Shown here: piece by piece, positions 7,152 to 13,965 of the stretch
How positions within the stretch are numbered: the first letter of the stretch is position 1
Layout of the letters: each line of letters begins with the position of its first letter
Assembly: GCA_023261445.1 (NCBI GenBank)
Contig: JAHFOX010000010.1
Coordinates: forward strand, 1-37,407
DNA from: Planctomycetota bacterium
GTDB taxonomy: Bacteria > Planctomycetota > Brocadiia > Brocadiales > Brocadiaceae
DNA length: 37,407 bases
Direction: 5' to 3'
Position numbers and translations under genes: made by a program
Notes under the pieces: model-generated
Told to the model about the DNA's origin: nothing
Databases searched by the model: none
What the model saw: only the letters and a program-made list of their open reading frames with translations

Positions 7152-7645
7152 AAGTAATCTCCAGTAGCAATTTAACACTTGAATGTATAACTGAGGGGGT
7201 CTTAATTATTTTGAGGAAGTATATCATAAGTGTATTTTTTGTCAAATAACAATTTTGTTTTATTCAGAATCAAGTTAAAATATCACTAAAGAAAAAAAGA
7301 AGGTGATATTGTTTATGTACGTTACGTAAAATTCTTAAGCTATGGATAAAATTGCCATTTTAATTTTTTGCTTGACATCTAACATTATGAATGGTTTATG
7401 TAAAAAACCAAACATTTTTTGATATGTTGAAGATAAGAAACACTTCTTTAACCCTATAGCAGACATTAAAAAAAGTTGTCGTTGTGAGGTATTAACCTGA
7501 AGCCGCTCGTTTTTCTGAAATGTTTGATAAGCACGGATTGCATTGTTCATTTCAATGTGTAATTGTTTTTGAATTAATGCGCCATCAATAACACTTTCTT
7601 CTGATGTTTAGTATGTTGAAATAACAAGGGAGCAATTGTACCGCT

Positions 7646-8620
7646 GTGGGAAAAAACAATAAAAACCAAAAACACCGAAACTGCATCGTAGTATGTTGTT
7701 TTATCGTTACAATTATTCTGCAAGCTTTATTTTATATTCACGAAGTAGATGCCGTTGAAAATACGGTCATTATTGTTCAGAGCCAGCAAATCCCGGCATA
7801 TAACGAAGCAATTAAGGGGTTTGAGGAAGAATGTAAAAGGAAAAACATTTCCATAAAGGCAATATACGACCTAAAAGGAGATGCAGAAGAAGGTAAAAGG
7901 ATTGTTAAAAATATTAAGGATAGTGAAATCAAACCAAAATTGTTTTTAGTGGTAGGCGTACTTGCTGCAGCCATTGTAAAGGAACAGTTCGATGATATCC
8001 CAGTCATATTTTGCATGGTTATTAATCATGAACGATTCAATTTACAGGGAGCTAATGTCACGGGTATTTCTACAGAAGCATCTGTAGAAGACCAGTTTGC
8101 TATTCTAAAAGGACTTCTTGGTACATATAAGAACGTAGGAGTCATTTACGACCCGGGAAAAACAGGGAAAATTGTATCAGAGGCAGTTGCGGCATCAAAA
8201 ATATTTGAATTCAATCTCATCAAATCAGAGGTCACTTCTGAGACCGAAGTTGCATTAGCTTTAAAAAATATTATAAATAAAATTGATGCCTTATGGATGA
8301 TACCGGATAGTACAGTAATTACAAAAAAGTCACTAGACATTATTTCTAAAACAGCTTTAGAATATCACCTGCCCATATTTTGCACCTCCGACGCTATTAT
8401 AAAAGCGGGGGCGCTTGTTTCTGTTTCTCCAGACTATAGATATATAGGTCTTCAAGCAGCCCAAATTGCACAAACGTTATTAAGTAACCCCACGATAACT
8501 TCACTGGGTATTAAGCGGCCGGATAAATTAAAATTAACATTAAATACGCAAACGGCAGAGTTAATTGGTGTAAATTTATCACCCATTCGCTCTTATCCTA
8601 ATGTGATTTTATATCCGTAG
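7646..8620 (+). CDS. ABC transporter substrate-binding protein (ABC_sub_bind family, PF04392-type)
   Basis: Signal peptide followed by VIIVQSQQIPAYNEAIKGFEEECK...PKLFLVVGVLAAAIVKEQFDDIPVIFCMV...NVTGISTEASVEDQFAILKGLLGTYKNVGVIYDPGKTG; GTG start. No permease or ATPase adjacent. Confidence 0.85.
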   Translation: MGKNNKNQKHRNCIVVCCFIVTIILQALFYIHEVDAVENTVIIVQSQQIPAYNEAIKGFEEECKRKNISIKAIYDLKGDAEEGKRIVKNIKDSEIKPKLFLVVGVLAAAIVKEQFDDIPVIFCMVINHERFNLQGANVTGISTEASVEDQFAILKGLLGTYKNVGVIYDPGKTGKIVSEAVAASKIFEFNLIKSEVTSETEVALALKNIINKIDALWMIPDSTVITKKSLDIISKTALEYHLPIFCTSDAIIKAGALVSVSPDYRYIGLQAAQIAQTLLSNPTITSLGIKRPDKLKLTLNTQTAELIGVNLSPIRSYPNVILYP

Positions 8621-8642
8621 TAGTTTTTAACGCTGGAATTGT

Positions 8643-10289
8643 ATGATTAGTATCCGTACAAGACTTATTTTTTATATGAGTATGTTAGTGATTATTGTCG
8701 GAGCGGTCAGTTGTGTATTTTTTTTAATCTATTCAAAAAAACAGCAAGAGGAATCACTTAAAAAATTGGGCGGATCCCTCGTTATGCTGCTTGCGCAGGA
8801 CAACGAAGTGAAAGATGCCCTGAGTTATTCACAACGAGCATTTCTCGACACTCCCATTCATGTGGTAAATGAGCTTGATATAGAAAAGGAAATTGGTTAC
8901 TTGCGTGTGGCAACTAATCAATCAATTTTGGTTGAGGAAAGAGCCCCTTGGATTGATATTGACATGGAGGAAATTCCAATCTGTAAGGACTCCGGGATTA
9001 CAAATGTGCCAGTGTCAAGCCAAATATGGGCAAGAGGGGGTGTGCGTGTTGTAGAACTACACCCCAATTCAAATATATCGGTCACTAATCGTAAAGTTGA
9101 TTGTGTAGGGGGGTTTTTTTACGATTTCACTGTCTCTGTTATTGGGAAGCAGACATTTTCGGAGGAAGAATTTGCTGCGCAGATTTTGGGGGAGGCTAAA
9201 GTCAGCGATAAGACTATACAAGAAAATTTAGGCTTTGTTCAGATTGGGTTGTCCACGTATAAATTAAATGAAAGGGTTAAAAAAATCATTTGGAGAATAA
9301 TTATTCCAATGGGATTAATTATCATTTTCGGAGGAATGGGCATAACATTATTTCTGACCAAATACTTTGTTTCTCCCCTGCGACACATTGCAAATATTAC
9401 GCTTGATATTGCAAAGGGAGACCTCACAAGGACTATAGATATTTGTTCTGAAGATGAGATTGGACAACTCTCCAAGAATTTTAATCAAATGACCACGGAG
9501 CTCAAAATATCGCATGATGAAAAAGAAAAGATTCTGGCACAATTACGTCAACACGTTGAAGAACTGACCAAAACAAATAAGCAATTGAGTGAGGCACAAG
9601 AACGATTGGTGCGTTCAGAGAAATTAGCCGTCGTTGGCAAGTTGGCGTCTGGTATAGGGCATGAGTTAAGAAACCCATTGGGAGCCATTAGAAATGCCCT
9701 TTTTGTAATTAAAAAGAAAACTGCAGGCATAAATACTTTAAATGATATTCAAAAATTAGATCAGCTAATTGAAATTGTAGAAAAAGAGACCGAAAGAAGC
9801 GTAAAAATCGTTAATGACCTGCTAGGATTTTCAAGAACTACAAAGCCTACTGTGTCACCTACAAGCGTCCGCGCTGTTATTGAATCTTCTTTTTTAAGAC
9901 TAAAAATGCCTGAAAGAATTGAAAAGGTCATTCAACTGGAAGATAACCTGCCATTGGTATCTGTAGATACTACTCAAATTGAAATGGTGTTTATGAATCT
10001 CATACAAAATGCCTTCGATGCTATGCCTACGGGTGGACAAGTAACTATTAATGCGAAAAGAGAAAATGGCTTTTTGGTTATTACCTTTTCTGATACAGGA
10101 TGCGGTATTCCTGATAACATTAAAGATAAAATATTTGACCCTCTATTTACAACAAAATCAAAAGGAATGGGATTGGGCTTGGCAATTAGCTCCAACATAA
10201 TACAAAGACATGAAGGATTTATTGATTTAAAAAGTAAAGAAGGGGAAGGCGCCAGTTTTATAGTTAAATTACCAATTGCAAATGTTTAA
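8643..10289 (+). CDS. Membrane sensor histidine kinase (periplasmic sensor, HAMP, HisKA, HATPase_c)
   Basis: Two TM segments, HAMP (FVSPLRHIANITLDIAKGDLTRTI), H-box SGIGHELRNPLGAIRNAL, N-box NLIQNAFDAMPTGG, G-boxes DTGCGIPDNI and KGMGLGLAISSNII. Confidence 0.95.
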   Translation: MISIRTRLIFYMSMLVIIVGAVSCVFFLIYSKKQQEESLKKLGGSLVMLLAQDNEVKDALSYSQRAFLDTPIHVVNELDIEKEIGYLRVATNQSILVEERAPWIDIDMEEIPICKDSGITNVPVSSQIWARGGVRVVELHPNSNISVTNRKVDCVGGFFYDFTVSVIGKQTFSEEEFAAQILGEAKVSDKTIQENLGFVQIGLSTYKLNERVKKIIWRIIIPMGLIIIFGGMGITLFLTKYFVSPLRHIANITLDIAKGDLTRTIDICSEDEIGQLSKNFNQMTTELKISHDEKEKILAQLRQHVEELTKTNKQLSEAQERLVRSEKLAVVGKLASGIGHELRNPLGAIRNALFVIKKKTAGINTLNDIQKLDQLIEIVEKETERSVKIVNDLLGFSRTTKPTVSPTSVRAVIESSFLRLKMPERIEKVIQLEDNLPLVSVDTTQIEMVFMNLIQNAFDAMPTGGQVTINAKRENGFLVITFSDTGCGIPDNIKDKIFDPLFTTKSKGMGLGLAISSNIIQRHEGFIDLKSKEGEGASFIVKLPIANV

Positions 10290-10298
10290 GGAATAGAA

Positions 10299-11447
10299 AT
10301 GATAAGTGAAAATAAGACACCTGGTAAAATCAGCGTCATGTTGGTAGATGACGATCTTTCCATATTACAAACAACCTCCGCGGTGCTGGAAGAAGAAGGA
10401 TATGATGTCCTGGCTTGTGGAGGAGGGAAGGAGGCGATTGATAAATTTAACGATTCTGTCCTTGCAGTGATACTGGATATTACTATGCCGGATATTTCAG
10501 GGTTTGAAGTCTTTGAAATTATCAAATCCAAGAATCATTATGTTCCTATAATTTTCCATACAGGCTACAGCGAAAAAGAAAAGAGAATAGATATTCGCAG
10601 GCACTTTCGGCCTCATGCCTATGTGGTTAAGGGCAGTGACCCGGAACAACTGCTTGACACCGTGGCAGGCGCCGTAGAATCTTATAAAAATATCCTAGAA
10701 AATGTTAAACTAAATGAAGTTCTCAAGGAACGGAACAAGCTAATTGAGGAATTCAACCGTTCTCTTGAAGACAAGGTTAAAAGACAGGTAGAAGAAATCC
10801 AGAGGACAAGCCGTTTAAAAAGATACGTTTCTCCGCAAATTGCTGAATCTATTATCTCCAAAGGCAGTGACAGATACCTTGTTAACGCAAGAAAATTATT
10901 GACGATATGCTTCTCTGATTTAAAAGGTTTTACTCAGGCATCCGAGAAGATGGAGCCAGAGACTACAGTAAAATTACTAAATGAATATTTTGCCGAAATG
11001 ACCACACTCATTTTTAAATACGGAGGCACTATAGACAAATTCATTGGTGACGGTATCCTTATATTTTTTGGCGATCCAATTAATTATGAAAATCACGCTG
11101 AACGAGCGGTCAAAATGGCTATAGATATGCGCAACAAAATTCAGGAGCTGCGAAAGCACTGGCTTGAATACGGCAGTAATATTGATATATGTTCTGGTAT
11201 CAATACCGGATATGTTACAGTTGGAAATGTCGGTTCGGCAGTCCAGATGAACTACACTGTTATAGGCCACGAAGTTAACATTGCGCACAGGTTACAACTC
11301 GAAGCCAAGGTAAGTCAAATCCTGATTACATCAAACACGTTGGCAGGATTAAAAAATATGGTAGAAACTGAGGAAATTAAGAATGTAAAGTTAAAGGGGA
11401 TTTATAGCCCTATGACCGTCTTTAATGTCATAAGATATAAGGAGTAA
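10299..11447 (+). CDS. Response regulator receiver fused to class III adenylate/guanylate cyclase
   Basis: REC residues DDD, LDITMPD, HTGYS, VVKG; cyclase motifs FSDLKGFT, GTIDKFIGDGILIFFGDP, NYTVIGHEVNIAHRL. Confidence 0.95.
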   Translation: MISENKTPGKISVMLVDDDLSILQTTSAVLEEEGYDVLACGGGKEAIDKFNDSVLAVILDITMPDISGFEVFEIIKSKNHYVPIIFHTGYSEKEKRIDIRRHFRPHAYVVKGSDPEQLLDTVAGAVESYKNILENVKLNEVLKERNKLIEEFNRSLEDKVKRQVEEIQRTSRLKRYVSPQIAESIISKGSDRYLVNARKLLTICFSDLKGFTQASEKMEPETTVKLLNEYFAEMTTLIFKYGGTIDKFIGDGILIFFGDPINYENHAERAVKMAIDMRNKIQELRKHWLEYGSNIDICSGINTGYVTVGNVGSAVQMNYTVIGHEVNIAHRLQLEAKVSQILITSNTLAGLKNMVETEEIKNVKLKGIYSPMTVFNVIRYKE

Positions 11448-11581
11448 ATCAAATAGATAGAAAATTAGTGACATGGAAGTCAAGTGTTTCATCTATAAAG
11501 AGTAAAGAATAATTAACCATGGCTTCAAATCAATCTCCAGTCTAGGAAGTTTTAGAAAAATACGATACTTAAAGTTTTGTC

Positions 11582-11610
11582 TTGACAATGTTAATTGAAT
11601 AGTTTAGAAA
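11582..11610 (+). promoter_or_regulatory. Possible sigma-70-type promoter for the TonB-dependent receptor
   Basis: TTGACA, 17-nt spacer, TAGAAA (4/6 match to -10 consensus). Confidence 0.3.
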
Positions 11611-11733
11611 ACGCACCTATCCAACATAACAACTATGATTTAAATACAGTTTCAGGCTAAATATCTAACTGCAATTTCATTGGTTTTGGTCTAAGAAGAA
11701 ACAAAATTTTTTATGGTAGAATGGATAAAAACC

Positions 11734-13965
11734 ATGAAGCGTTTGTTTGTGTTCTTAATGTTCCAAAGCATATTACTCTTGAACATTATTCCCTTCCTTC
11801 CATCCACAACTTATGCAGAAGGCGCTGATACACCATCTACTCCAGACCAAAAAACAAGTCACTCTATTGAAACTACAACAAATAGCAGTGGAAACAATTC
11901 AAAGAGCATGGAATCTGCCATATCCGAAGAACTCTCTGCTGAAGCCATTTGGTTTGGCGCCGGCGAAGAAGTAACTATTGCCACAAGGCTCAAAACTCCA
12001 ATCGGCAAGGCGCCCAGCGTTGTGACCGTGATTACGGATGAAGAGATAAAGAATCTGGGTTATCGCACCTTGGTTGAAGTGCTGAGGATTGTGCCGGGTT
12101 TTGAGATTATGAAATTTGCCGATTTCGGGATGGAAAGCCCTTCTGTGAGGGGGCTGGCTACCGTAAACGGTGCAAACAGAATAAGGCTGATGCTAGATGG
12201 GCATTTTGTAAATAATCCTTTACGTGGCAGGGCTTTTAATGAATTTGATGATTTCCCTGTAGAAAATATAAAAAGGATTGAGATTATACGAGGACCTGGT
12301 TCTGCAATGTACGGAGAAAATGCTTTTTCAGCGGTTATCAATATCATTACCAAAGATGCAGGGGATATTGATGGCGTAAAGCTTACCAGCGGGTATGGAA
12401 GTTTTGATACGTACGAAGAAAACGTCTTGTTTGGAGAAACTAATGGAAAGGTTTCTATCTCAGGAATGGCGCACTACCGACAGACAAGCGGTTTTGATGG
12501 TATCATAGAAAGTGACAGCCAGACAAATATAGACAATGCCCTTTCTCCATTTGGAATTCCTGCCGCGTCTCAGGCGCCGGGGTCAGTGCATGACGGCAGG
12601 CAAGAATACGACGTGAACTTGAAGGTGGTTTATGAAAATTTATACTTTTTAGGATGGTACGGCAATAAGAATCAGGAACCTTTTGTTGGGCCACAATATG
12701 CTTTAGCAGATGGCTCTAATGTTGAAGATAACCATGTATTTGGCGAGGTTGGGTATAAAATGACGTTTGAGGAAAAACTTACCATAAAGCCCCGGATATA
12801 CTACGATCAAATTGACACTGACATTTTTATTAAATCTTTGCCGGAGGGTACCACTTTACCTCTGGATACCAATGGCGACGGTATAACAGATACGTTTAAT
12901 TATTATCCCGATGGATTCGTCGGTGATGGTATAGTAAGTGAAAAGATAGTTGGCACAGAAATTCCATTCGATTATAATTTGTTCGATGGGAATATACTTA
13001 CACTTGGATTTGAGTATCGTCTGATCAATCAAACAAACGTCCAGTTTTTAACCAACTTTGATCCAGTAACTATGGCACCGCTGCCTTCCACTCAGGATTT
13101 TTCAGACACATACCCTTTTTTACAAGAAGCCACCAGGAGAGTAGCGTCGGTTTATGTGCAGGATACGTGGGATATTACTGACTCATTAAATCTCACCATT
13201 GGGGCAAGACATGACCAATACAACGATTTTGGCGGTGCAACCAGTCCACGGTCCGGTTTATCCTGGGCGTTTATGGAAAACGCATCGCTAAAAGTGCTTT
13301 ACGGAGAAGCATTCAGGGCGCCCAGCTTTATAGAGATGTACACTACCAATCAACCCGCTGTACAGGGTAATCCCGATTTGCAGCCTGAGCTTATTAGAAC
13401 TTATGAACTTGGGCTAAGTTATAAATTTAATAAATACGTTACAAGCAGTGTTAATTATTTCATAAATGATATAAAAGACCTCATTGCCCTGCGTCCGTTG
13501 GAATCAGATACACGCACATCACGTTATGAAAATTTTGGAGATGCACATGTACAAGGCATAGAAATGGAGACCAAGATAGATATAAGCAAGGGGAACTATG
13601 TTTTTATGAATTATACATTCCAAAACCCGGAAGACGACAATGGAGATAATCTTCCATCTGTATCGAAACACAAGGGTAATTTTGGAGTGAATGTACAACC
13701 TTGTAAACATATTAACACCAACCTCAGCACTTTTTTTAGTGGCAGACGTTTCAGAGAGGAAGGTGATCCGCGAGAAGATATGCCATCTTACGCGTTGCTT
13801 AATCTTTCTGTTATTGGAAAAGAGTTCTTCAAGACAATGGAAGTACAGGGGACAGTGTATAATCTGCTTGATAAAGACTATAGCGACCCGGGTCCTGTTT
13901 CCTTATACGAAGATTTACCCCGTCCCGAAAGGACATTTTTTGTTGGATTGAGCTATAAGTTTTAG
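11734..13965 (+). CDS. TonB-dependent outer-membrane receptor
   Basis: Plug domain TPIGKAPSVVTVITDEEIKNLGYRTLVEVLRIVPGFEI..SVRGLATVNGANRIRLMLDG..IEIIRGPGSAMYGENAFSAVINIITK; C-terminal YNLLDKDYSDPGPVSLYEDLPRPERTFFVGLSYKF. Start could be 11713 or 11734. Confidence 0.93.
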   Translation: MKRLFVFLMFQSILLLNIIPFLPSTTYAEGADTPSTPDQKTSHSIETTTNSSGNNSKSMESAISEELSAEAIWFGAGEEVTIATRLKTPIGKAPSVVTVITDEEIKNLGYRTLVEVLRIVPGFEIMKFADFGMESPSVRGLATVNGANRIRLMLDGHFVNNPLRGRAFNEFDDFPVENIKRIEIIRGPGSAMYGENAFSAVINIITKDAGDIDGVKLTSGYGSFDTYEENVLFGETNGKVSISGMAHYRQTSGFDGIIESDSQTNIDNALSPFGIPAASQAPGSVHDGRQEYDVNLKVVYENLYFLGWYGNKNQEPFVGPQYALADGSNVEDNHVFGEVGYKMTFEEKLTIKPRIYYDQIDTDIFIKSLPEGTTLPLDTNGDGITDTFNYYPDGFVGDGIVSEKIVGTEIPFDYNLFDGNILTLGFEYRLINQTNVQFLTNFDPVTMAPLPSTQDFSDTYPFLQEATRRVASVYVQDTWDITDSLNLTIGARHDQYNDFGGATSPRSGLSWAFMENASLKVLYGEAFRAPSFIEMYTTNQPAVQGNPDLQPELIRTYELGLSYKFNKYVTSSVNYFINDIKDLIALRPLESDTRTSRYENFGDAHVQGIEMETKIDISKGNYVFMNYTFQNPEDDNGDNLPSVSKHKGNFGVNVQPCKHINTNLSTFFSGRRFREEGDPREDMPSYALLNLSVIGKEFFKTMEVQGTVYNLLDKDYSDPGPVSLYEDLPRPERTFFVGLSYKF

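Follow-up and report, generated by a model that had tools for sequence, protein, structure and literature searches.

The window, a 37,407-nucleotide stretch of DNA from an anammox bacterium of the order Brocadiales (draft genome of 2.08 Mb, 91% complete), contains a gene group that likely encodes a transporter-less, binding-protein-dependent receptor. A solute-binding protein (SBP) of the PF04392 family would bind a small molecule in the periplasm, and the neighboring histidine kinase would sense the ligand state of the SBP through a Cache-like extracytoplasmic domain, as LuxQ does that of LuxP. The kinase would phosphorylate or dephosphorylate Asp60 of a receiver-cyclase, whose phosphorylation state would set cAMP production. 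The adjoining TonB-dependent receptor would probably carry the ligand across the outer membrane.

The genes lie head to tail on the forward strand. The SBP gene (7646-8620, 324 aa, GTG start; PF04392, ABC_sub_bind) is followed after 22 nt by that of the membrane histidine kinase (8643-10289, 548 aa; Pfam HAMP, HisKA and HATPase_c), whose residues 1-235 (8643-9347) make up a lineage-specific sensor part resembling a single Cache/PDC domain. After a further 9 nt comes a receiver fused to a class III cyclase (10299-11447, 382 aa; Response_reg and Guanylate_cyc), and 265 nt separate this gene from that of the TonB-dependent receptor (11713-13965, 750 aa; TonB plug and barrel), all on the same strand. 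Open reading frames and Pfam domains thus agree with the gene order given in a preliminary description of this DNA. Its 22-nt spacing is exact, whereas the kinase-to-cyclase gap is 9 nt, not 10, and the receptor lies 265 nt downstream compared with the approximately 270 claimed. The same trio of SBP, kinase and receiver-cyclase recurs in 22 of 33 family genomes, so the arrangement is not due to chance, and the synteny that the description had proposed to check is conserved. Predicted promoters and terminators within the trio are no more numerous than in shuffled DNA. Elsewhere in the window, 1279-2256 encodes a protein similar to the heme b subunit of type II DMSO reductase family enzymes; its score, 126.7 bits, is below the cut-off of 169.9.

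The SBP matches PF04392 with an E-value of 9.2e-28 and 97.7 bits, above the curated cut-off of 25.9. It has an N-terminal hydrophobic signal segment with no evident lipobox and is predicted to be periplasmic. A search with its AlphaFold2 model (mean pLDDT 90) using Foldseek returned CD0873 (6hni), 3lkv, and 3lft with L-Trp as best matches. The protein is only about 20% identical to structures with a known ligand, and its score of 88 bits against the TrpX equivalog model NF041285 falls below the cut-off of 390. Plasmid-borne PF04392 SBPs are less than 30% identical to it, and no closer relatives were found on plasmids. The genome holds two PF04392 proteins. The second (G000:C59:28661-29584; L003:14656-15633) is 67% identical to the first and has neither sensor nor TonB receptor; it is followed by a 270-aa transglutaminase-like protein, which elsewhere follows a TonB-SBP-HD-GYP version of the locus.

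No permease or ATPase gene adjoins the trio, as the preliminary description had stated. The partner permease family, PF02653, to which the genome-wide search was directed, was not found in the 2.08-Mb draft (91% complete). Because a draft genome can miss genes, the whole family was screened for PF02653, which is absent from 22 of the 33 genomes. These 22 include the single-contig or few-contig relatives G024, G013, G010 and G006, each with three to four PF04392 proteins. The suspected absence of a cognate permease genome-wide is thus upheld for this permease family. Two positive controls were detected by the same search: a permease-SBP fused protein in G058, and a PF02653 permease beside a PF04392 gene on contig C139 of G023. 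Transporter-type PF04392 loci of Brocadiales carry the permease fused to, or beside, the SBP gene.

The kinase comprises a first transmembrane segment (residues ~6-33), an extracytoplasmic domain (~34-211), a second transmembrane segment (~212-244), HAMP (237-287), HisKA with His340 (codon 9660-9662) and HATPase_c (442-546). An extracytoplasmic domain between two transmembrane segments, followed by HAMP and a kinase core, is the layout of SBP-activated sensor kinases. The GHELRNP, N box, DTGCGI and GMGL motifs are intact. Searches of the sensor domain against Pfam, PDB sequences and profiles gave nothing above threshold. An alignment of the first 235 kinase residues from 62 loci was built, and 26 of these 62 members gave sCache_4 matches, all sub-threshold. 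The AlphaFold2 model of the sensor (mean pLDDT 74.7) consists of a long helix, two helices, a five-stranded sheet and a C-terminal transmembrane helix. Its best crystal match by Foldseek is the LuxQ periplasmic domain, both alone and in complex with LuxP, at a weak E-value of 6e-3 and a TM-score of 0.42; CitA, DctB and Tlp3 come next, similarly weak at E-values of 6e-3 and up and TM-scores of about 0.4. Given these values and the sub-threshold sCache_4 matches, the sensor is described here only as Cache/PDC-like, and identity with the LuxQ domain is not claimed. The domain is present in 45 of the 59 related genomes searched and, outside Brocadiales, in one remaining genome of a 392-genome phylum sample, where it is weakly matched. 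It appears to occur almost only in Brocadiales.

We searched the 59 related genomes for the sensor independently of the SBP. A PF04392 match lies directly upstream on the same strand, at a median gap of 27 nt, for 70 of the 73 strong sensor matches, and two of the three exceptions begin at a contig edge. Three of the 70 paired sensors, one in each of three genomes of genus g6, keep only an SBP remnant, and G004 retains the sensor with no SBP gene genome-wide and at most a short remnant. Intact sensor kinases of 1400 aa with a remnant or lost upstream SBP are found at G006:C3:1034575, G013:C1:3503435, G017:C4:33129 and G004:C33:106761; these may rely on an SBP acting in trans or have become independent of one. 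Reciprocally, of 74 close SBPs, 65 are followed by the sensor. Linked genes give matching trees whether or not their proteins touch. The correlation between SBP and sensor trees (r 0.945) exceeds all those obtained by swapping partners within genomes (mean 0.914, maximum 0.938, 0 of 999 as high); the match is supporting and not decisive, since any two genes inherited together would be expected to show it. No conserved permease occurs among the genes nearest the SBP-sensor pair. Judged by gene neighborhood, the conserved partner of these SBPs is the sensor, not a permease. A distant second PF04392 subfamily (~26% identical; L102, L103, L104, L107 and L110) shows the order TonB receptor-SBP-kinase or TonB receptor-SBP-HAMP-GGDEF-EAL, with a diverged sensor.

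The residues required for signal relay are present in the window. Besides the HisKA histidine and the ATP-binding motifs of the kinase, the receiver has the acidic pair, the phosphoacceptor Asp60 (codon 10476-10478), Thr88 as the T/S residue and Lys111. The cyclase has D207 and D251 for metal binding, K247 and T320 for adenine, and N327 and R331 for the transition state, which are the residues of class III adenylate cyclases of the Lys/Thr type. In an alignment of the cyclase-type loci, nearly all of the relay and cyclase residues are unchanged. The nearest solved structure is CyaB (3r5g, E 1e-45), in which the six catalytic residues are identical. Because the Lys/Thr pair is that of CyaB-type adenylate cyclases, cAMP is the predicted product. 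Of the two outputs initially considered, cAMP is thus favored and cGMP less so.

Downstream of the SBP-sensor unit, the output varies between genomes. The kinase with receiver-cyclase is found in the window and 21 other family genomes. In relatives the same unit is followed by a PAS/GAF hybrid kinase with a sigma-54 regulator, by PAS-GGDEF-EAL or GAF-HD-GYP proteins, or by a kinase with REC-PAS-GGDEF-EAL, and the Scalindua-type family has a kinase, a multi-receiver protein and REC-HD-GYP. An input that is kept while the output is swapped would be the expected look of a binding-protein-dependent receptor. Several loci of the sigma-54 version, from several genomes, are preceded by TrkH, TrkA-like and ParA-like genes (L048, L051, L054, L056 and L082). 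In another family of the order (L096 and L097), the gene after the SBP-kinase pair encodes, in place of a response regulator, a kinase-fold protein of the Kdo/WaaP-like type, 524-559 aa long.

Directly upstream of the SBP, 7 of the 22 cyclase-type loci encode a protein that binds cyclic nucleotides, in most cases together with a flavoprotein-like gene, and it is plausible that this protein is the effector of the cyclase. In other genomes the gene has decayed or is lacking, and it has been lost in the window, where no remnants of it or of the flavoprotein gene were found in 7179-7645. Loci with a cyclic-nucleotide-binding protein before the SBP are L035, L036, L037, L041, L049, L062, L064 and L069; in L049 this protein and the flavoprotein-like part form one open reading frame, whereas in the others the genes adjoin.

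No PF00593 barrel other than the TonB-dependent receptor was found in the window genome. The closest relatives of this receptor (67-70% identical) immediately precede SBP-sensor pairs in other Brocadiales, which suggests that the receptor is an input part of the module rather than its target. Of the 27 TonB receptors in seven genomes, 11 are no more than 6 kb from a PF04392 gene, where 0.29 would be expected. Most cyclase-type loci have no adjoining TonB receptor, so the link between receptor and SBP is family-wide and not strict. The receptor had been suggested as a possible target, with a search for CRP-family sites near 11500-11710 as the check. A role as a transcriptional target is not borne out: no CRP-like box occurs in 11448-11712 within three mismatches, CRP-like matches over the whole window are no more frequent than in shuffled DNA, and the two cyclic-nucleotide-binding proteins of the genome have no recognizable DNA-binding domain. 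The receptor is probably the outer-membrane part of the same module. An apparent fusion of TonB receptor and SBP (L091, 1046 aa), which at first seemed to tie the two proteins together decisively, most likely results from frameshift read-through, as the receptor lacks its last strand and the SBP that comes after it still has its own signal peptide.

Other explanations of the locus were weighed against these data. Cache/PDC domains can bind ligands directly, as in CitA and DctB, both of which are among the Foldseek matches of the sensor. The kinase might thus sense its ligand directly through the Cache-like domain, the SBP being a co-regulated scavenger or buffer for an unrecognized transporter. 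The sensor of G004 without an SBP, the remnants in the three g6 genomes and the 9 of 74 SBPs that have no sensor fit such an arrangement. We nevertheless consider it unlikely, because the sensor almost never occurs without the SBP in any of five output contexts, single-contig genomes contain no PF02653 permease, and no permease is conserved nearest the pair. Less probable still is a transport role, in which a permease of some other family, encoded elsewhere, receives the cargo of the SBP and the kinase regulates this uptake. PF04392 proteins whose function is known, TrpX of Streptococcus suis among them, are components of ABC uptake systems (PMC9382623). The draft genome is 91% complete, and the permease search was confined to PF02653. 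Against this stand the single-contig relatives that keep the SBP with zero PF02653 permeases, the true transporter-type loci in which the permease is in or beside the SBP gene, and the conserved partnership with the sensor instead of a permease.

The adjoining TonB receptor, and the linkage of such receptors to PF04392 SBPs across the order, could also reflect trans-envelope signaling of the FecA-FecR type, with the SBP and kinase as chance neighbors. We regard this as very improbable: Pfam recognizes only plug and barrel in the receptor, with no STN/secretin N-terminal signaling domain, no FecR or ECF sigma gene was found among its examined neighbors, and the sensor is also conserved at loci that lack the receptor. 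A FecA-FecR-type signaling receptor was rejected on these grounds. The reading of the SBP as a periplasmic ligand sensor that feeds the kinase, already put forward in the preliminary description, gains from an SBP without a transporter, its fixed position beside a kinase with an SBP-linked sensor, and the intact relay residues. Several points count against it. Neighboring SBPs and kinases are not always functionally linked, since AgtB and AgtS, though encoded side by side, did not bind each other (PMC11113362). The sensor persists in G004 without an SBP and in three g6 genomes with a remnant, and the likeness to LuxQ is weak and shared with the direct binders CitA and DctB. The lack of an adjoining receptor at most cyclase-type loci bears against the TonB part.

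The proposed receptor resembles several known systems. In the LuxP-LuxQ receptor for AI-2 of Vibrio, the gene of a periplasmic binding protein likewise adjoins that of a membrane kinase, whose periplasmic domain is PAS/PDC-like. Unlike this pair, the window SBP belongs to PF04392 and is unrelated to LuxP at the family level; its sensor is shorter, with one Cache-like unit in place of the tandem PAS/PDC of the LuxQ type; and the output is a receiver-cyclase, whereas LuxQ, a hybrid kinase, acts within a phosphorelay. NspS of Vibrio cholerae is an SBP without a transport role that controls the membrane GGDEF-EAL enzyme MbaA. It resembles the GGDEF-EAL versions in Brocadiales relatives, whereas the window output is a cyclase reached through kinase and receiver. 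The cyclase shares the metal, Lys/Thr and Asn/Arg residues of CyaB, a class III adenylate cyclase of Pseudomonas aeruginosa, but a receiver domain replaces the CyaB N-terminal part. We know of no SBP-activated kinase pair that carries cyclase, sigma-54, GGDEF-EAL and HD-GYP outputs within one order.

TrpX and CD0873 share the family and fold of the window SBP, but TrpX works with a permease and an ATPase in one operon (PMC9382623), neither of which adjoins the SBP gene here. TorT-TorS, AioX-AioS, BctC and other SBP-activated kinases resemble the proposed receptor in mechanism but have other SBP families and other sensor domains (PMC11113362, PMC9602780). Only about 10 such kinases have been characterized (PMC9602780), and the genes are adjacent in 10 of 11 characterized SBP-kinase pairs (PMC11113362). 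The working principle is thus known from LuxP-LuxQ and TorT-TorS. The novelty of the anammox version lies in the use of PF04392 together with a lineage-specific sensor, in its spread through the lineage, in outputs that can be exchanged and in the association with a TonB receptor. We found no prior description of an SBP/TonB/kinase module in anammox bacteria in the open-access literature.

To our knowledge, very little has been learned about sensing in anammox bacteria. One report describes a CRP homologue in a Brocadia genome but gives no clear stimulus for it (PMC8510549). Nine family genomes yielded no class III cyclase besides the receiver-cyclase, and the SBP-kinase pair is therefore a leading candidate for the input into cAMP signaling of these bacteria. 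One SBP-sensor unit that evolution has joined to five different outputs offers a clean test bed, and the ligand of one member, once found, would suggest ligands for about 70 loci. More tentatively, the locus may represent an order-wide, outer-membrane-gated module in which a TonB receptor imports a scarce molecule, the SBP captures it and the Brocadiales-specific sensor drives whichever output is fused to it. If so, the output would be cAMP in the window and c-di-GMP or sigma-54 transcription in relatives, and TonB-dependent uptake would serve perception, not nutrition.
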